Shown: positions 35,346 to 64,000 of the stretch, piece after piece
How the letters are laid out: each line of letters starts with the position of its first letter
How positions within the stretch are numbered: the stretch's first letter is position 1
Assembly (NCBI RefSeq): GCF_007970805.1
Contig: NZ_CP042433.1
Coordinates: 248,001-312,000, forward strand
Length of the DNA: 64,000 nt
From: Flavisolibacter ginsenosidimutans
GTDB lineage: Bacteria; Bacteroidota; Bacteroidia; Chitinophagales; Chitinophagaceae
Direction of reading: 5' to 3'
Position numbers and translations under genes: made by a program
The notes under the pieces: model-generated
What the model saw: the letters and a program-made list of their open reading frames with translations, nothing else
Database searches by the model: none
What the model was told of the DNA's origin: nothing

Positions 35346-35885
35346 ATGATTATGGAAAACGTAGCAAACGTAGACGTACAAAAACGTACAGACGAAACGT
35401 ACAAAGACATACCGGGTTGGGGCATTGATGCCGATCCGGAGAACGAGCCGACCTATCCAATGAAGCATTACACCGGCGACGATCACCAACGGTTGCATTA
35501 CGAACGTCCGCCTTTGCAACCCGTGGACGTTGAGGTGTTGCATTCCAACGAGCGGCCTAACGTGACAGCGGCTTTTGGCACCGTGTCGCCCCCATCGGGA
35601 TTAAGCGGTATGCTTCGGCGTTATGCTTTTCAACACAGCGAAGGCAGTTCTTTGCACTGGTTGCCGCTGATCATGGCCGACCGCATCAACGCCATTGAAG
35701 GCATCGTGGATGATTTGGCGCACGGCCACATTCCCAATGTTTTCGCCGAACGCGGATGGAATGCGGAATGGAAGTACAACCGGAAAGGATTGATTACAAA
35801 AATTGCGGTGACAACACTTGTTGCAACAACGGTGATTGCCTTGCTCTCAACAAAAAAGAAAAAAAAGAAACGGTTCTCGTTTTGA
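35346..35885 (+). CDS. Conserved hypothetical protein paired with the dehydrogenase
   Basis: The 179-residue product is hydrophilic through most of its length (PGWGIDADPENEPTYPMKHY near the N terminus, LHWLPLIMADRINAIEGIVD in the middle) with one C-terminal hydrophobic helix (IAVTTLVATTVIALLS) followed by a lysine-rich tail, so it may be a tail-anchored membrane protein. I do not know its function. It follows the zinc dehydrogenase directly and is followed by a hairpin; the pairing suggests a shared role. Confidence 0.75.
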   Translation: MIMENVANVDVQKRTDETYKDIPGWGIDADPENEPTYPMKHYTGDDHQRLHYERPPLQPVDVEVLHSNERPNVTAAFGTVSPPSGLSGMLRRYAFQHSEGSSLHWLPLIMADRINAIEGIVDDLAHGHIPNVFAERGWNAEWKYNRKGLITKIAVTTLVATTVIALLSTKKKKKKRFSF

Positions 35886-44022: not shown

Positions 44023-47000
44023 ATGAGAAGAACCAGACAATTTCTTTTGCTCTGTGGCGCTTCGCTTCTTTCACTCCTTGGCAAAACGCAAACGACGTTT
44101 CCTGTAAACGACGTCGCCGATCCGAAGTACACGCATTATGCGTTTACCGGCGCCACCATTGTAAAAGACGCGAACACCACCATCACAAACGCAACGCTGA
44201 TTATTAAAGACGGAAAAATCGTGGCCGTTGGACAGGGCCTGAAAGTGCCCGACGGCGCCATTGAAATCAGCGCCAAAGGCAAGTACATCTATCCGTCGTT
44301 TATTGACATTTACAGCGATTACGGCACACCGCCCGTTCAGGCGAGACAAGGCGGCTTTGATTTTTTTGCCCGCGGACAAATTACCACCAACACCAAAGGC
44401 GCTTACGGCTGGAACCAGGCCGTACGCCCCGAAGTAGATGCCTATAAAATTTTTGCAGCCGATGAAGCAAAGGCAAAAACCTTGCGTGACCTTGGCTTTG
44501 GCACCGTGCTCACGCACGTAAAGGACGGCATTGCCCGTGGCACCGGAACGGTTGTTACCCTTGCCGATGAAAAAGAAAACCTGGCGATGCTAAAGCAAAG
44601 GGCTTCAGCAAATTATTCCTTCAACAAAGGCTCGTCCACGCAAAGCTATCCCGGTTCGATGATGGGCATGATTGCGCTGTTGCGCCAAAGCTACCTGGAT
44701 GCGCAATGGTACAAATCGGGCGGCGCTTCAAAGGAAGGTGTGAACCTGAGTTTGGAAGCCTGGAACAACAACCAAAACCTGCCGCAAATTTTTGATGCGG
44801 GTGATAAATGGAACGACCTGCGTGCTGACCGCATTGGCGACGAAGCCGGCGTACAATACATCATCAAAGGCGGCGGCAACGAGTACCAGCGTATGGACGA
44901 TATGAAGGCGACAAAAGCCACGTTCATTCTCCCGCTGAACTATCCGCAGGCGCAGGATGTGGAAGATCCAGCCGATGCACGTTTTGTTTCGTTGACTGAT
45001 TTAAAAAATTGGGAGTTGGCGCCAACAAATCCTGCAGCCTTTGAAAAAGCAGGCATCCCGTTTTGCTTAACCACTTCGGATTTGCGGGATTCCAAAACCT
45101 TTCTAACAGCCGTTCGCACCGCCATTAATTATGGACTGAGTGAGAAAGCTGCAATGATTGCGTTGACAAAAACACCCGCTGAAGTTTTGGGGATTTCGAA
45201 CATGGTGGGAAGTTTGGAAGCTGGCAAACTCGCCAACTTTTTAATCACCAGCGGGCCAATTTTTGGCGAACGCACAACTATCTATCAAAACTGGATTCAA
45301 GGCATCAAGCACAACGTAAAAGACGAAGTGTACAACGAGATGCGCGGCAAATACAATCTTGTATTGACAACGCCATCCGGCACCGCGAATTACCTGTTGG
45401 ATTTTAAAACGCCAACGCAAGCAACGACGCTGTTGGGCAAAGACACCGTTACATCCCGCTTTTATTATGACGGCCGCAACGTTCGCATTAACGTGGCGCC
45501 CGAAAGAAGAGGCGATGCAAACCTTCGCCTGACGGGAACCGTGAACGGCAACGAATGGACGGGATACGGCGAAGACAGCGCAGGCAATCGCTTTACCTGG
45601 TCTGCACGTTATTCGGCCACGCAAGATTCAATAAGGGAAAGAAGAGACAGTGCAAGAAAACGTCCGATGGTTTTAGGAAAAGTTACGTATCCTTTTCTGC
45701 CTTATGGTTGGGAAGAAGGGCAGATGCCAAAGCAAGAAACGATTCTGATTAAAAACGGAACGGTGTGGACAAGCGAGGATGCCGGCATCTTGCAAAACAC
45801 CGATGTGCTGTTGAAGAACGGCAAGATTGCAGCCATCGGAAAAAATCTTTCTGCCGAAGGTGCAAGAGTGATTGATGCAACGGGCAAATTTGTAACGCCG
45901 GGCATCATTGACGAACACTCGCACATCGCGGCTGCATCCATCAACGAAGGCGGGCAAAGTGTAACGTCCGAAGTTCGCATCGCTGACAACCTGAATCCGG
46001 ATGACATCAATATCTATCGCCAGTTGAGCGGTGGTGTAACGACATCGCACATCTTACACGGTTCTGCCAACACCATTGGTGGACAAACGCAATTGATCAA
46101 ATTGCGTTGGGGCGCTGATGACGAAGGATTGAAGTTTAAAGGCGCCGATGGCTTCATCAAATTTGCTTTGGGCGAAAACGTAAAACGTTCCCCCACGCAA
46201 GCCGGCCAAAACAATCGTTTCCCTGATACCCGCATGGGCGTAGAGCAAGTGTTGGAAGATGCGTTCACAAGAGCAAAAGATTACGAACGTGAATGGAAGA
46301 CATACAACAACAGCGGCAAAAAGAGTCCTGCGCCTCGCCGCGATTTGGAACTGGATGCGTTGGCTGAAATTTTAAACAACAAACGCTTCATTACTTGTCA
46401 CTCGTATTTGCAAAGCGAGATCAACATGGCAATGCACATTGCCGATAAAATGGGCTATCACTACAACACCTTCACGCACATTTTGGAGGGCTACAAAGTA
46501 GCCGATAAAATGAAGGCACACGGTGCAAACGCTTCTACTTTCTCTGATTGGTGGAACTACAAAATGGAAGTCGTTGATGCCATTCCTTACAATGCTTACC
46601 TGATGCAGAAAGCCGGTTTGAACGTAGCCATTAATTCTGATGATGCGGAAATGGCAAGACGCTTAAACCAGGAAGCTGCCAAAAGTGTGAAGTACGGCGG
46701 CATGACGGAAATTGATGCGTTGAAAATGGTCACTATCAACCCTGCAAAAATGTTGCACGTTGACAAACAAGTTGGCAGCATCAAAGTGGGCAAAGACGCA
46801 GACGTTGTTGTTTGGAGCGATCATCCGTTGAGCATTTATGCAAAATCGCTCTACACCATTGTTGACGGAACAATTTATTTCGACCGCGAGAAAGATGCAC
46901 AAATGGAAAAGCAAATTGCTGCAGAAAGAATGCGCATCGTGAAAAAGATGAACGGCGAAAAGCAACGTGGAATGCCGGTTCAATCGGTTCAACCAAGTTA

Positions 47001-47070
47001 CCAGGTAATCCAAACTTGTGGCGAAGACCATCATGCCTTTGGCATACTGGCTGTAGAAGACGGCAATTAA
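44023..47070 (+). CDS. Large exported amidohydrolase with two modules, first one degenerate
   Basis: The 1015-residue protein has a signal peptide (RQFLLLCGASLLSLLGKTQ) and two tandem imidazolonepropionase-like modules. In the N-terminal module the HxH metal motif is replaced (YPSFIDIYSDYG). The C-terminal module is intact: PGIIDEHSHIAAAS, ITCHSYLQSEI, YNTFTHILEGYK and NVAINSDDAEM, with the C-terminal VGSIKVGKDADVVVWS. So hydrolysis should occur in the second module; the substrate is unknown. A second amidohydrolase gene follows after an inserted four-helix-bundle gene. Confidence 0.88.
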   Translation: MRRTRQFLLLCGASLLSLLGKTQTTFPVNDVADPKYTHYAFTGATIVKDANTTITNATLIIKDGKIVAVGQGLKVPDGAIEISAKGKYIYPSFIDIYSDYGTPPVQARQGGFDFFARGQITTNTKGAYGWNQAVRPEVDAYKIFAADEAKAKTLRDLGFGTVLTHVKDGIARGTGTVVTLADEKENLAMLKQRASANYSFNKGSSTQSYPGSMMGMIALLRQSYLDAQWYKSGGASKEGVNLSLEAWNNNQNLPQIFDAGDKWNDLRADRIGDEAGVQYIIKGGGNEYQRMDDMKATKATFILPLNYPQAQDVEDPADARFVSLTDLKNWELAPTNPAAFEKAGIPFCLTTSDLRDSKTFLTAVRTAINYGLSEKAAMIALTKTPAEVLGISNMVGSLEAGKLANFLITSGPIFGERTTIYQNWIQGIKHNVKDEVYNEMRGKYNLVLTTPSGTANYLLDFKTPTQATTLLGKDTVTSRFYYDGRNVRINVAPERRGDANLRLTGTVNGNEWTGYGEDSAGNRFTWSARYSATQDSIRERRDSARKRPMVLGKVTYPFLPYGWEEGQMPKQETILIKNGTVWTSEDAGILQNTDVLLKNGKIAAIGKNLSAEGARVIDATGKFVTPGIIDEHSHIAAASINEGGQSVTSEVRIADNLNPDDINIYRQLSGGVTTSHILHGSANTIGGQTQLIKLRWGADDEGLKFKGADGFIKFALGENVKRSPTQAGQNNRFPDTRMGVEQVLEDAFTRAKDYEREWKTYNNSGKKSPAPRRDLELDALAEILNNKRFITCHSYLQSEINMAMHIADKMGYHYNTFTHILEGYKVADKMKAHGANASTFSDWWNYKMEVVDAIPYNAYLMQKAGLNVAINSDDAEMARRLNQEAAKSVKYGGMTEIDALKMVTINPAKMLHVDKQVGSIKVGKDADVVVWSDHPLSIYAKSLYTIVDGTIYFDREKDAQMEKQIAAERMRIVKKMNGEKQRGMPVQSVQPSYQVIQTCGEDHHAFGILAVEDGN

Positions 47071-47557
47071 TTGTTCACTTGTTCACGTGTTTACATGTTC
47101 ACTTGTTAGTTTCTTCGTATGGCAACGTTTAAAACATTTGAAGAAATACACGCTTGGCAAAAGGCGAGGGAGTTGAATATGCTTGTTGGAAACTTTATTG
47201 ACTCCGGCAGGTTTAAAAGCAACTTCCGGCTGATCAACCAAATTGAAGGATCCGCCGGTTCAATTATGGACAATATTGCCGAAGGCTTTGAACGAAGCGG
47301 TAACAAAGAGTTTCTTCAATTTTTATATATCGCCAAAGGATCATGCGGAGAGTTTCGCTCACAACTCTATCGAGCGACGGATCGTAATTACATCCAGAAA
47401 CCGGAATTTGATGAACTCTTTGCTTTGTCTAAAGAAATCATTAACTGGTTACAAAAGCTTATTGATTACTTGCAAACCTCTGAACTCAAAGGAACGAAGT
47501 ATATGACCCGAAAGGAAGACAACAAGTGAACAGGTGAACAGGTAAACATGTGAACAA
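47071..47557 (+). mobile_element. Octad-armed element enclosing a four-helix-bundle (IVP family) gene
   Basis: The left arm 47071-47107 and right arm 47521-47557 are inverted copies matching at about 32 of 37 bases. Each is an 8-base tandem array (TTGTTCAC, GTGTTTAC, ATGTTCAC on the left; AACAGGTG, AACATGTG type on the right). The arms enclose one gene, whose stop codon lies in the right arm. The element starts at the base after one amidohydrolase stop and ends just before the next gene, as if inserted between two members of one operon. Confidence 0.6.
47119..47529 (+). CDS. Four-helix-bundle protein of the 23S rRNA intervening-sequence (IVP/S23) family
   Basis: The 136-residue protein shows the PF05635 pattern: FEEIHAWQKARELNMLV, the conserved core FRLINQIEGSAGSIMDNIAE with GFERSG, KEFLQFLYIAKGSCGEFRSQ and a last helix EIINWLQKLIDYL. 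Members were first found in insertions within 23S rRNA genes, and relatives (Avd) assist diversity-generating retroelements. Here the gene sits between two amidohydrolase genes inside an inverted pair of 8-bp repeat arrays, and no rRNA, reverse transcriptase or template repeat is near. Molecular function is unknown; a nucleic-acid binding role is likely from the family. Confidence 0.9.
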   Translation: MATFKTFEEIHAWQKARELNMLVGNFIDSGRFKSNFRLINQIEGSAGSIMDNIAEGFERSGNKEFLQFLYIAKGSCGEFRSQLYRATDRNYIQKPEFDELFALSKEIINWLQKLIDYLQTSELKGTKYMTRKEDNK

Positions 47558-47569
47558 AAAATAAAATCA

Positions 47570-48895
47570 ATGAAAAAAATATTTTTAAGTTTCTCTGCTT
47601 TGTGTTTTTTGATGACTGTTCGTTCACAGGAAACAATAGCACCTGCGCCAAAGCAATCGCAACCGATAGTGATTACCAATGCCACTATTCACGTTGGCAA
47701 CGGACAAGTGATTAACAACGGCTCTATCGTTGTGGTTAATGGAAAGATTACGGCCGTGGGTGCAAGCGTAACACCGCCAGCCGGCGCGAAAACAATTGAC
47801 GCACAAGGCAAGCAGGTTTATCCCGGTTTGATTTTAGCCAACAGCAATCTTGGTCTTGTTGACGTGAACTCTGTTCGAGCAACGAGTGATGTTCGCGAGA
47901 TTGGCGACATGAATGCGAGCATTCGCTCCATCATTGCTTACAATGCCGAGAACAAGGTCATCAACACTCTCCGGCCAAGCGGTATTCTATTGGCGCAGGT
48001 TGCACCCGAAGGCGGCATGTTGAGCGGCTCATCTTCTGTGGTGCAATTGGATGCATGGAACTGGGAAGATGCCGCATACAAAACCGACAACGGCCTTCAT
48101 TTCAACATGCCTTCTTTTCTTCCACGCCCACGCTTCGGCTTTGGCGGCGGTGGCGGCCGTGGCGCGGGTGGAGAAGCGCCTGCCGATCCGGTAAAAGAAG
48201 CCTTGGAAAAGATTGATGGCTTCAAGGCTTTTCTTCGCGAAGCAAAAGCTTACAACGGCGTGAAGAAGCCGGAGGAAACAAACCTGAAATACGAGGCCGT
48301 AAAAGGCTTGTTTGATCGTTCGCAAAAATTGTTTGTTCACGCAAGCACGGTGAAGCAAATTTTGGTGGCGGTTGATATGGCGAAGGAGTTTAATCTTGAC
48401 ATGGTGATTGTTGGTGGTGAAGACAGTTGGCAAGTTGCCGACCTGTTGAAGCAAAACAACATTTCGGTTATTTTAAGCCAGCCGCACAGCCTTCCGATAC
48501 TTCCCGATGACGACGTGGACCAGCCTTACAAAACGGCGGCGCTTTTGCAAAAAGCCGGCGTCAACTTTGCCATCAATGACGATGACGGACAAACCCGCGG
48601 CCGCAATCTTCCGTTTAACGCAGGCACTGCTGTGGCTTATGGATTAACCAAGGAACAAGCGCTGGCCGCCATCTCACTTAATGCGGCAAAAATTTTGGGC
48701 GTGGGTGATAAAACCGGTAGCATCGAAGTAGGCAAAGATGCCAACATCGTTATCAGCACCGGCGATATTTTAGACATGCGCACCAACAACATCACGCAGG
48801 CTTTTATTCAGGGCCGCGAGATTAGTTTGGAAAGTCATCAAACCCAGTTGTACGACAAGTACAAAAAGAAATTGGGCGTGAAAGACGCATTTTAA
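47570..48895 (+). CDS. Amidohydrolase-like protein, probably lacking the first metal motif
   Basis: The 441-residue product has a signal peptide (KKIFLSFSALCFLMTVRSQ) and an imidazolonepropionase-like domain with the N-terminal composite strand region (ITNATIHVGNGQVINNGSIV). Where HxH is expected it has YPGLILANSNLGLVD, while the late aspartate region FAINDDDGQTRGR and C-terminal TGSIEVGKDANIVIS remain. It resembles the degenerate first module of the large protein upstream, so it may be a non-catalytic partner. A terminator follows. Confidence 0.85.
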   Translation: MKKIFLSFSALCFLMTVRSQETIAPAPKQSQPIVITNATIHVGNGQVINNGSIVVVNGKITAVGASVTPPAGAKTIDAQGKQVYPGLILANSNLGLVDVNSVRATSDVREIGDMNASIRSIIAYNAENKVINTLRPSGILLAQVAPEGGMLSGSSSVVQLDAWNWEDAAYKTDNGLHFNMPSFLPRPRFGFGGGGGRGAGGEAPADPVKEALEKIDGFKAFLREAKAYNGVKKPEETNLKYEAVKGLFDRSQKLFVHASTVKQILVAVDMAKEFNLDMVIVGGEDSWQVADLLKQNNISVILSQPHSLPILPDDDVDQPYKTAALLQKAGVNFAINDDDGQTRGRNLPFNAGTAVAYGLTKEQALAAISLNAAKILGVGDKTGSIEVGKDANIVISTGDILDMRTNNITQAFIQGREISLESHQTQLYDKYKKKLGVKDAF

Positions 48896-48953: not shown

Positions 48954-50120
48954 ATGCACCGTTTTAAAATTTTTCTTGTTGCCTTTATTTTTCTTGTTGC
49001 CTTTTTACTGTTTCATTTTTATGCATCCGCGCAAAAGCTTTATTATCCCGATTCGGTTTGGCTGCACAAAAAGCCTGAAGAATTGCGGATGAGTGCGCAG
49101 GCGGTTGACAGTGCCGTATCCTTTGCGCTTCGCAACGAATCGAAAACAGATTATGATTTGCGCATTGCCAATTTAAAGGCTTACGCTAATGAACCCGCTT
49201 ACCGGATGCTTGGGCCCATGAAAGAACGCGGCAAGCCTGCAGGGCTCATTATCAAAAACGGATACATCGTTGCCGAATGGGGCGATGCAAACCGCGTGGA
49301 TATGACCTTCAGTGCTACCAAATCTTATCTCTCTACAGTAGCCGGCTTGGCTCTTGATGCGAGGCTGATAAAAACCATTGACGACAAAGTAGCCGCATAC
49401 GTAACAGATGAAAAATTTGAGGGCGGGCACAATGCAAAAATTACGTGGCGACATTTGCTTACGCAATCTTCCGACTGGTCGGGTTGTTTGTTTGACGTTT
49501 GTGATTGGGCCGATCGTCCGCCGAAAACCGGCGGCATTGACAATTGGAGGAACCGCAAATTGAACGAACCGGGCACGGTGTTCAAGTACAACGACGTGCG
49601 GGTGAATTTAACCGCTTACGCCTTGTTGCAGGTTTGGCGAAAGCCTTTGCCAATGGTGCTGAAAGAAAAGCTGATGGACCCGATTGGCGCTTCCACAACC
49701 TGGCGTTGGTATGGCTATGAAAATTCTTTTGTGAACGTTGACGGCCTGATGATGCAATCGGTAAGTGGTGGCGGTCATTTTGGTGGTGGTCTTTTCATCA
49801 ACACATTTGACCAGGCTCGCTTTGGCTTGCTGTTTTGCCGCAAGGGAAAATGGAAAGAGCAGCAATTGATTTCTTCGCAATGGACAGACGCCGTGCATCA
49901 ATCTTCCTTTGCCAACAAATCTTATGGCCTCATGTGGTGGACCAATGCGGAAAACCATCTTGGCAATGTTTCAAAAAACATTTACGCGGCCGAAGGCTTC
50001 GGTGGAAATTTTGTGGTGGTGGACAGCGAAGATGACCTGGTGATTGTTGCCCGCTGGTTAGAGCCATCGAAGATTGGCGAAATGATACAAATTGTGGTGA
50101 ATTCTTTGCAAAAGAAATAA
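48954..50120 (+). CDS. Serine hydrolase of the beta-lactamase (class C/PBP) fold
   Basis: The 388-residue protein has an N-terminal hydrophobic signal or anchor (FLVAFIFLVAFLLFHFYAS) and the SxxK motif in MTFSATKSYLSTVAG, the YxN motif in VFKYNDVRVNLTAY and a late GGNFVVVDSEDDLVIV in place of KTG. Such proteins are esterases, amidases or D-aminopeptidases. No resistance role is implied. It is convergent with htrA over a shared terminator. Confidence 0.9.
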   Translation: MHRFKIFLVAFIFLVAFLLFHFYASAQKLYYPDSVWLHKKPEELRMSAQAVDSAVSFALRNESKTDYDLRIANLKAYANEPAYRMLGPMKERGKPAGLIIKNGYIVAEWGDANRVDMTFSATKSYLSTVAGLALDARLIKTIDDKVAAYVTDEKFEGGHNAKITWRHLLTQSSDWSGCLFDVCDWADRPPKTGGIDNWRNRKLNEPGTVFKYNDVRVNLTAYALLQVWRKPLPMVLKEKLMDPIGASTTWRWYGYENSFVNVDGLMMQSVSGGGHFGGGLFINTFDQARFGLLFCRKGKWKEQQLISSQWTDAVHQSSFANKSYGLMWWTNAENHLGNVSKNIYAAEGFGGNFVVVDSEDDLVIVARWLEPSKIGEMIQIVVNSLQKK

Positions 50121-62714: not shown

Positions 62715-62790
62715 ATCAGGAATGCTTTGCGGAACGGCGTTAATGTTGTGCGGAGGAGTTATCCGTTAACCATAATTAACGTGAGGGAAA

Positions 62791-62900
62791 GTTCACGTGT
62801 TGACTTGTTCACTTGTTCACAAGTTCATAAGTCGGTGTCCGAAACCAGAAGGCCGCTTCAATCGTTTAAGACGAACAAGTGAACCCGTGAACAAGTGAAC
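62791..62900. repeat. Paired octad hairpin next to purK
   Basis: The left arm 62791-62830 is a tandem of 8-base units (GTTCACGT, GTTGACTT, GTTCACTT, GTTCACAA, GTTCATAA). The right arm 62871-62900 carries GAACAAGT, GAACCCGT and GAACAAGT in inverse orientation, ending one base before the purK stop codon. The unit is close to that of the arms around the four-helix-bundle gene at 47071-47557, but no gene lies inside. Confidence 0.75.
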
Positions 62901-64000
62901 TTAAGACACCACCTTCAGCAGTTGTTTTACCTTGTTCGCTTTGTGAACAAGGTCTGCTTTTTCGGCGCTGATCACGGTAACGTGCCCCATTTTTCGCCCC
63001 GGTTTTGTATGCGTTTTGCCGTAAATGTGAACGAAGGCGTTATCAATTTGCAGTACGTCGTTTAACCCTTCGTATTTGGCCGGACCGCTGTAACCTTCGC
63101 TGCCCACAAGGTTGATCATGGCTGAAGAAAAAATGGCTTTTGTATTGCCCAGCGGATAGCCGAGAAGAATGCGCCACAGCATGTCAAACTGCGAACTGTA
63201 ATGTGCTTCAATGGTATGGTGTCCGCTGTTGTGCACCCGCGGCGCGGTTTCGTTCACCAGCACGTCGTCATTTTCATCCACGAACAATTCAACGGCGAAC
63301 AATCCCGGCGAGCCGAAGTTGCGAACAACCGACAGCGCAATAGCTTCCACTTTCCACAATACCTTTTGCGAAATGTCGGCGGGAGAAAGCTGGTAATCCA
63401 GCAGGTTTAAATCTTTGTTGAAGATCATTTCCACCGGCGGATACAAAGCGGTTTTTCCGTCCTGACCTACGGCCACGATTTGCGCCACTTCTTTTTTGAG
63501 CCTTACTTTTTTTTCCAGCACGCTTTCTTCTTCAAAACCTTTGTGCGCATCGTTAAGGCTTTCAATTATTTCAACGCCTTTCCCGTCGTAGCCGCCTTCG
63601 GCTAATTTTTGCACGGCGGGCAAAAGGTGTTGGTGCAAAGCGATTTCATTGCGGTGCGAAAGAATGGAATAGGCTGCCGTGGGTATGCTGTGTTGGGAAT
63701 AATATTTTTTTTGCGCTGCCTTGTTTTTAATAATTCGTAGCACGGAAGGCTTTGGAAAAATTTTCACGCCTTCGCTTTCCAGTTTTTCCAGGGCCTCAAT
63801 GTTTACGTTTTCGATTTCTATGGTTACGGCATCAAGCGATTTTCCAAAATTGTAAACGGTGTCAAAATCGCGGATGCTGCCTTTTACGAAATACCGGCAT
63901 AAATGAGCCGCCGGACAATCATCGTCGGCTTCCAGCACGTGCGTTTCCACGGGATAATTTGCCGCGGCCTGCAACAACATTCTGCCCAATTGTCCGCCGC
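62901..64000 (-). CDS. purK: N5-carboxyaminoimidazole ribonucleotide synthase, 5' end off the window
   Basis: About 366 residues are visible, from the glycine-rich GGQLGRMLLQ that follows the start in PurK proteins to the stop at 62901, so only a few N-terminal residues are missing. ATP-grasp features include AEGGYDGKGVEIIE, FAVELFVDENDDVLVNETAP and RVHNSGHHTIEA. PurK makes N5-CAIR, the PurE substrate. The stop codon directly follows the right arm of an octad hairpin. Confidence 0.95.
   Translation of the reverse strand, partial: GGQLGRMLLQAAANYPVETHVLEADDDCPAAHLCRYFVKGSIRDFDTVYNFGKSLDAVTIEIENVNIEALEKLESEGVKIFPKPSVLRIIKNKAAQKKYYSQHSIPTAAYSILSHRNEIALHQHLLPAVQKLAEGGYDGKGVEIIESLNDAHKGFEEESVLEKKVRLKKEVAQIVAVGQDGKTALYPPVEMIFNKDLNLLDYQLSPADISQKVLWKVEAIALSVVRNFGSPGLFAVELFVDENDDVLVNETAPRVHNSGHHTIEAHYSSQFDMLWRILLGYPLGNTKAIFSSAMINLVGSEGYSGPAKYEGLNDVLQIDNAFVHIYGKTHTKPGRKMGHVTVISAEKADLVHKANKVKQLLKVVS

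Follow-up and report, generated by a model that had tools for sequence, protein, structure and literature searches.

Inverted 7- and 8-nt repeat arrays around IVP genes: a probable mobile unit in Flavisolibacter ginsenosidimutans and other prokaryotes

The intervening sequences in the 23S ribosomal RNA (rRNA) genes of Coxiella, Leptospira, and other bacteria closely resemble the element considered here, a short gene between two inverted repeat arrays ("arms") in the genome of Flavisolibacter ginsenosidimutans. The element lies in a stretch of 64,000 nt (contig NZ_CP042433.1, positions 248,001 to 312,000), called the window below. The rRNA intervening sequences carry a gene of the same protein family (S23p or IVP) in the same inverted-repeat enclosure, and a hairpin tip is replaced. 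In Coxiella, for example, tandem GACAGAT heptamers, variable in number among strains, stand ahead of the S23p open reading frame (ORF) inside a 28-bp terminal stem, and the mobility of this intervening sequence is just a hypothesis (PMC4990558). In contrast, nearly all the units described here lie outside rRNA, at the stop codons of operons, and none of the 80 GTDB loci surveyed below matches 23S rRNA. Arm, IVP gene, and inverted arm together probably form one mobile unit of about 400-570 bp, promoted by the IVP via host enzymes. The rRNA intervening sequence with S23p was already known, and the gene, whose role is not known, had been met mainly in such rRNA insertions; together with its arms it turns out to be widespread, in about twenty phyla.

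Other described systems share some of these features. In REPIN/RAYT (TnpA-REP) systems, as here, a few motif-flanked genes per genome coexist with many scattered gene-less inverted pairs of the same motif. However, the IVP lacks a Y1/HUH domain and folds as a four-helix bundle, its arms are tandem 7- or 8-mers rather than single palindromes, and one genome can hold many families. The Avd protein of diversity-generating retroelements (DGRs) has the same fold as the IVP, but the IVP gene has neither a reverse transcriptase next to it nor a template or variable repeat; the window ORFs around it include no reverse transcriptase, which a DGR would have. Miniature inverted-repeat transposable elements (MITEs) are likewise short inverted-repeat elements that do not code for protein but have a gene-bearing relative; the IVP units, however, have no transposase, and no target duplication was seen in the one pair of filled and empty sites compared. 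The GGGAATC heptamers of Xanthomonas form 7-nt arrays, with 70-75 inverted pairs per genome that are convergent and near stop codons; they were described as G-quadruplex repeats, with no link to an IVP (PMC4692102). Xanthomonas campestris also holds XCC0516, an IVP of known structure, and the GGGAATC pairs look like the gene-less form of the unit.

In the window, two co-directional amidohydrolase genes flank the insertion site, and the unit between them has the same (sense) orientation.

44023-47070, plus strand: upstream amidohydrolase gene, 1015 aa
47068-47557, plus strand: whole unit, about 487 bp
47066-47107, plus strand: 5' arm, inward-reading TTGTTCAC-like array of 8-nt period, about 4.6 units
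47119-47529, plus strand: IVP gene, four helix bundle protein, 136 aa (PF05635, TIGR02436)
47521-47562, plus strand: 3' arm, inverted AACAGGTG-like array of 8-nt period, about 4.5 units
47570-48895, plus strand: downstream amidohydrolase gene, 441 aa

An earlier note on this DNA had placed the gene exactly between inverted arms of 8-bp period. The arms are real: they are 83% complementary over 42 nt (about 35 of 42), with a 29-nt core at 90%, and the program TRF gives both a period of 8, with 4.6 (5') and 4.5 (3') copies. The word "exactly" has to go, since the 3' arm has the stop codon of the gene (TGA, 47527-47529) in its first unit. On the other side, the upstream amidohydrolase ends with a TAA stop (47068-47070), and this is where the 5' arm begins. 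No longer inverted pair exists in the window (spacing within 800 nt), and a pseudo-gene of equal size slid over the window met comparable periodic arms nowhere. The unit pair GTGAACANGTGAACA, with at most two mismatches, has 13 matches in the window compared to 0.5 expected, confined to the arms of the IVP unit and an empty hairpin at 62789-62902. Folded as RNA, the segment forms a stem of the two arms that encloses the gene (z = -8.2). The gene thus sits in an inverted-repeat stem like that of a 23S rRNA intervening sequence, but not in a 23S rRNA gene. Its product scores 103.5 bits against PF05635 (cut-off 33.8) and 99.4 against TIGR02436 (cut-off 24).

The ends of the unit are the outer ends of its arms, as seen in two sets of copies. 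Two paralogues of the source genome, L007 and L009, at 3.61 and 4.95 Mb, share 84% protein identity, and their DNA homology (455 bp) spans the outer edge of the 5' arm (AAGTGAGAGGTGAGACG) to the outer edge of the 3' arm, while their surroundings are unrelated. Synonymous sites are saturated between them (dS 1.64), and the arms are about 94% identical by a count from the alignment; so few differences despite this dS mean that the arms are under constraint. In Azospirillum lipoferum 4B, plasmid AZO_p2 carries an IVP unit inside a 23S rRNA gene (identified by cmscan), with arms of 7-nt period (TCAGAGGACGGATGACAGAGGACGG...). The 23S gene of AZO_p3 has no IVP unit, and its compared flanks are identical to those of AZO_p2. 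The inserted unit, 469-473 bp long with arms at its very ends, replaces 14-19 nt of the native hairpin tip. In both cases the same unit stands at unrelated sites with fixed ends, which is what is generally asked of a mobile element. The filled and empty copies of Azospirillum make the rRNA intervening sequences a special case of the unit; gene-bearing 23S intervening sequences do not differ in kind from stand-alone units. The parallel drawn in the earlier note with 23S rRNA IVP genes inside an inverted-repeat stem is borne out.

The arms are widespread, much more so than the earlier note, limited to the window, could tell. The source genome (5.08 Mb) has 13 PF05635 genes, 10 of which pass a strict arm test (inverted pair score of at least 12 and a best period of 7 or 8), and their motifs are diverse (GTTCACTT, GTTGATAG, AGGTTGG, GTGAGAC, GGATGAC, TTATGAG, AATGTAA, and others). 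A survey of 155 genes covered the genus, the phylum, and plasmids, with further loci from one GTDB genome scan; 1,959 positions in the same loci and in the window served as controls. Strict arms were found at 110 of the 155 genes and at 6 of the 1,959 control positions. The 80 GTDB loci were picked by similarity to a consensus and many are from related species, so the counts are non-independent, but the contrast with the controls is still very large. In the congener G017, periodic arms were seen at all 12 genes examined, and many genes that fail the strict test still have visible, weaker arms. The period was 7 in 96, 8 in 14, and 9 in 2 of the elements scoring at least 12. The suspicion that such arms might be lacking at homologous genes in other genomes, which would have told against the earlier note, did not come true.

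Among the hosts are Bacteroidota, Cyanobacteria, Acidobacteriota, Verrucomicrobiota, Planctomycetota, Chloroflexota, Bacillota, Nitrospirota, Omnitrophota, several Patescibacteria, Gemmatimonadota, Alphaproteobacteria, and an ANME-1 archaeon (L156). PF05635 genes, commonly annotated as proteins of unknown function, occur in 232 of 296 sampled Bacteroidota genomes and in about twenty phyla, often with 5-18 per genome. Two of the source-genome genes, L001 and L012, have no detectable periodic arms, and L001, which carries an in-frame TAA, is probably a relic. At a Syntrophomonadaceae locus (L158), the IVP match extends over 532 bp for 115 residues inside intact 7-nt arms; the gene seems to be interrupted by an insert.

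Arm motif and period track the protein clade rather than the host. At sites with non-homologous flanks, arm similarity climbs with protein identity (Mantel, 0/2,000): the Jaccard index of arm 5-mers is 0.025 at 20-40% protein identity, 0.10 at 60-70%, and 0.26-0.35 above 70%. Unrelated elements within one genome have arms that are similar only at chance level (0.023). The period is clustered on the protein tree as well, with 10 changes compared to 18.9 upon shuffling (0/500 shuffles). One clade with 8-nt arms covers Flavobacteria, Verrucomicrobia, and Nitrospirota, a distribution that suggests transfer between phyla. The 96 seven-nt elements share a core of A (0.88) and G (0.91) followed by five freer positions, with a unit information of 2.92 (at most 2.00 in the null). 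Their arms have a median length of 4.2 units, and the inward strand of the arms is C-poor (10%). The window motif, GTTCAC in 8 nt, deviates from the AG core.

The earlier note had also regarded the empty hairpins as having the architecture of the unit and as possible derivatives of its coding form, and the window holds four.

62789-62902, strand undefined: gene-less hairpin with the 8-nt motif of the window unit, 30-nt arms, 54-nt loop
22093-22188, strand undefined: gene-less hairpin with the 7-nt motif GTGAGAC, as in the resident L007 and L009
4791-4870, strand undefined: gene-less hairpin with the 7-nt motif GTGAAAC/GTGAGAC, as in the resident L007 and L009
42542-42624, strand undefined: gene-less hairpin with the 7-nt motif GGCAATTG

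The architecture is indeed shared, with the motif of the unit itself in the first hairpin and 7-nt periods in the others. The edge of the first lies at the stop codon of a minus-strand gene (63989-62901), and it was not seen in relatives whose gene end could be read. For GGCAATTG, no matching resident IVP was found in the source genome; elements L039 and L041 of congeners are similar. On genome samples of 400-464 kb, the source genome shows 14 strong periodic gene-less hairpins in 464 kb (about 30 per Mb). Ten of these 14 have the motif of a resident IVP unit, while about one is expected from the arm sets of other species (0/2,000 draws), and the same is true of 7 of the 9 hairpins of G017 (0/2,000 draws). 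As in REPIN/RAYT, the repeat that flanks the gene also occurs in gene-less pairs scattered through the genome. G002, a 7.0-Mb genome of the same genus, has no PF05635 match, compared to 3-18 in its congeners. Deleted IVP genes were sought in the interiors of same-motif hairpins of the source genome, and none was recognisable. In G017, long arrays matching the 8-nt window motif (G017:C1:5158791-5159026 and 1854742-1855196) advance in steps of 24 nt (3 units) and 32 nt (4 units) and look like an arm grown into a minisatellite.

The intermediate states of gene loss can be seen in Chryseobacterium, where an operon junction between a moxR-like gene and a DUF58-type gene (named by reading of the sequences) shows every state. 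The junction has no element in G367 and G376, which have a spacer of 1-5 bp, and a full element with AGGTNGC arms in G223, G333, G330, G354, G375, G378, and G326. Only the arms remain after loss of the gene in G347, G340, G379, and G318, and in G325 the arms still hold a remnant of the 3' end of the IVP gene. The upstream stop codon is TAG at element-bearing junctions and TAA otherwise, so the element begins within the stop codon. In G315, G322, and G327, the junction hairpin has a different motif, GGGATTAGGATTTAG, which is that of another Chryseobacterium IVP clade (L122, L184). In the Chryseobacterium loci L276, L277, and L278, a gene-less hairpin of one motif family holds the operon junction where other species have a gene-bearing unit of another family, which makes the junction a shared hot spot. 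Hairpin motifs that match resident genes, together with these deletion intermediates, agree with both the derivation of empty hairpins from a coding element and the comparison to REP/RAYT logic made in the earlier note.

The window locus itself tells of an older event. As the earlier note had surmised, the IVP separates amidohydrolase genes that are otherwise adjacent: it is present at the junction in 3 of 16 species (G000, G013, G017) and absent in 13, so the order amidohydrolase-IVP-amidohydrolase is far from fixed. The nearest relatives (G005, G008, G010, G015) have an amidohydrolase spacer of about ten bases and no IVP. The junction IVPs of the three species form a single clade (SH-aLRT 98), and for this reason the insertion is old, which rules out a recent insertion. 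Judged from these sequences, the insertion appears to be one old event, repeatedly lost or spread locally. The mobile unit proposed in the earlier note is supported by the wider survey and not by a recent jump at its own locus. The junction arms have the 8-nt GTTCAC motif in G000 and G017 and the 7-nt GTTTAAG motif in G013, both arms having changed together, and the IVP is frameshifted in G017. Two other repeats occur in the window: a short tandem repeat of a 23-nt unit (AAAACGTACAAACGTAAACGTACA) at 35356-35412 and a perfect 18-nt duplication at 48969-49004, close to the start of the gene at 48954.

The units are found in characteristic places. A co-directional ORF precedes 95 of the 110 units. 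In 67, the distance from the stop codon to the outer edge of the 5' arm is about 10 nt or less, and about half of the units have the start of the next gene at most 20 nt past the 3' arm. Where both neighbors are co-directional, the IVP gene has their orientation in 112 cases and the opposite one in 8, compared to 67% agreement for ordinary neighbors. In 44 of 110 units (10.9 after shuffling), each of the three reading frames meets a stop in the 5' arm, which is possible because periods of 7 and 8 are not multiples of 3. For example, a unit in Anabaena sp. 90 separates cas6 from cas4 in a type I-D CRISPR (clustered regularly interspaced short palindromic repeats) operon, and another lies between an AAA-ATPase (parA-like) gene and a ParB gene in Geminocystis. 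An opposite-strand exception stands between ribonucleotide reductase genes in Nostoc edaphicum. There was no match among 50,697 phage records that would point to carriage by phages.

The IVP protein was modeled with AlphaFold2 (AF2) as a four-helix bundle (pLDDT 90), with a TM score of up to 0.93 on the chains of 2GSC. The depositions of its fold relatives XCC0516 (2GSC) and BT_0352 (2RLD) contain five chains each, and the paper on the XCC0516 structure, cited in PMC10053308, speaks in its title of five four-helix bundles. The model is also like the DGR protein Avd (4DWL, TM 0.85 on the target; 8UB7), and homology of IVP and Avd has been noted (PMC10053308). As modeled, then, the IVP is a pentamer-fold relative of Avd. 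A profile search returned PF05635 as the sole match of the window protein, and not the Y1/HUH transposase that marks REPIN/RAYT. Pairs of IVP genes have a dN/dS of 0.04-0.12 where measurable, a mark of strong purifying selection, and the protein therefore works.

The sense bias could be read as the mark of an RNA element, in which the IVP binds the stem or guides its processing, RNase III excises it from mRNA or rRNA so that the insert is harmless, and mobility, if any, goes through RNA. This account is possible but rather unlikely. It draws on the orientation in operons and rRNA (112 to 8), the stable stem across the gene (z -8.2), the RNase III cuts in the rRNA stems of Coxiella and others (PMC4990558), and the place of the fold relative Avd as a subunit of a reverse transcriptase complex. 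However, an inverted repeat gives the same stem either way, and the bias may reflect just the need to express the IVP; it is expected if the IVP has no promoter of its own, so an RNA route is not proven by it. The arm mismatches on the sense strand are G-U in 133 cases and A-C in 130, and because these are equal there is no sign of selection for a sense-strand RNA stem, a possibility that was dropped for want of a G-U excess. A route through reverse transcription was likewise set aside, since a reverse transcriptase (RVT_1) was not found in most of the IVP-rich congeners: no match was found in 12 of 18 congeners, including G005 (17 IVP matches) and G015 (18). An RNA role in silencing the insert, by analogy with what RNase III does for the rRNA elements, is possible.

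A further account does without mobility: short tandem repeats grown by slippage beside IVP genes, matched by hairpin-templated repair, would make the scattered hairpins independent products of slippage. This is very improbable. Repeat number does vary among Coxiella strains (PMC4990558), and the concerted shift of both arms between G000 (8 nt) and G013 (7 nt) means that some concerted change within the unit is real. The exact arm-to-arm homology of L007 and L009 in unrelated places and the filled and empty rRNA copies contradict slippage as a full account, but slippage may explain how the arms stay matched. Hairpin motifs shared with resident genes and a clade-kept motif at non-homologous sites also speak against it. 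Slightly less probable still is that the hairpins belong to another mobile system (a RAYT/Y1 transposase with its REPs, or an insertion sequence) with IVP genes as passengers. The source genome does have two RAYT-like Y1 transposase genes (L320, 4.59 Mb; L321, 4.14 Mb), and REP/REPIN hairpins are comparable in size and intergenic location (PMC3116915, PMC2817692). The inverted repeats beside these two genes (TGACCCGAAGGGTC; ACCTTATTACCTT) are of another kind, however, with no 7- or 8-nt period, and a Y1 transposase was rejected as owner of the hairpins; moreover, arm motif and period track the IVP tree across phyla, unlike those of a passenger. The least probable account takes the window IVP for a genuine operon gene with a host function alongside the amidohydrolases. 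A single old insertion common to three species and purifying selection on related IVPs agree with it, but 13 of 16 congeners have no IVP at the junction, that of G017 is frameshifted, and other IVPs adjoin genes of every sort.

A mobile unit promoted by the IVP is thus the preferred reading. The same arm motif recurs at unrelated places, both gene and arms are conserved, and same-motif hairpins populate the genomes that hold the gene. Several points weigh against it. No catalytic signature is known for the IVP family. No movement has been observed, the filled and empty 23S pair of Azospirillum shows no target duplication, and no test of IVP binding to the arms was found in the literature. Visible arms are missing at a minority of genes (e.g., L001, L012, L130, L181). 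The IVP-free G002 holds 6 periodic hairpins in 400 kb, 2-3 of them convincing, so their density is lower but not zero, and hairpins can therefore outlive a resident gene or do without one. The interiors of same-motif hairpins are unrelated, a fact left unexplained if the gene was simply deleted from within. In Coxiella, S23p is possibly not expressed (PMC4990558).

The working of the unit could be as follows. A pentameric IVP, we infer, recognises the repeated unit, with about one 7- or 8-nt unit per subunit and 4-5 units per arm. Recognition would probably take place on a strand exposed as a hairpin, because a spacing of 7-8 nt is out of step with the 10.5-bp turns of the helix. By holding both arms, the IVP would help its own unit to be copied or transferred, and would do the same in trans for the gene-less hairpins. 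This is the logic of REPIN-RAYT, although the protein is unrelated; host enzymes would do the cutting and joining. The units would be tolerated in tight operons and rRNA by landing at stop codons or hairpin tips, often by having stop codons in all frames, and by folding out of the transcript.

No description of periodic inverted arms at stand-alone IVP genes, or of the clade-specific motifs and genome-wide gene-less derivatives of IVP units, was found in the open-access literature. One could consider the units a new class of bacterial and archaeal mobile elements, in which a protein, pentameric and apparently not an enzyme, reads the inverted 7- or 8-nt arrays at the ends and moves the unit and, in trans, the gene-less hairpins via host enzymes. 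The rRNA intervening sequences, the Xanthomonas heptamer repeats, and perhaps the cyanobacterial heptamer repeats would then be members or remnants, a proposal whose chances are a little short of even. The mobile unit would explain where gene-bearing rRNA intervening sequences come from, which has been a puzzle since 1990, and would supply a source for many of the intergenic heptamer repeats in bacteria. It would also add a partnership of repeat and gene that works without a known transposase, with several such pairs of protein and motif in each genome.
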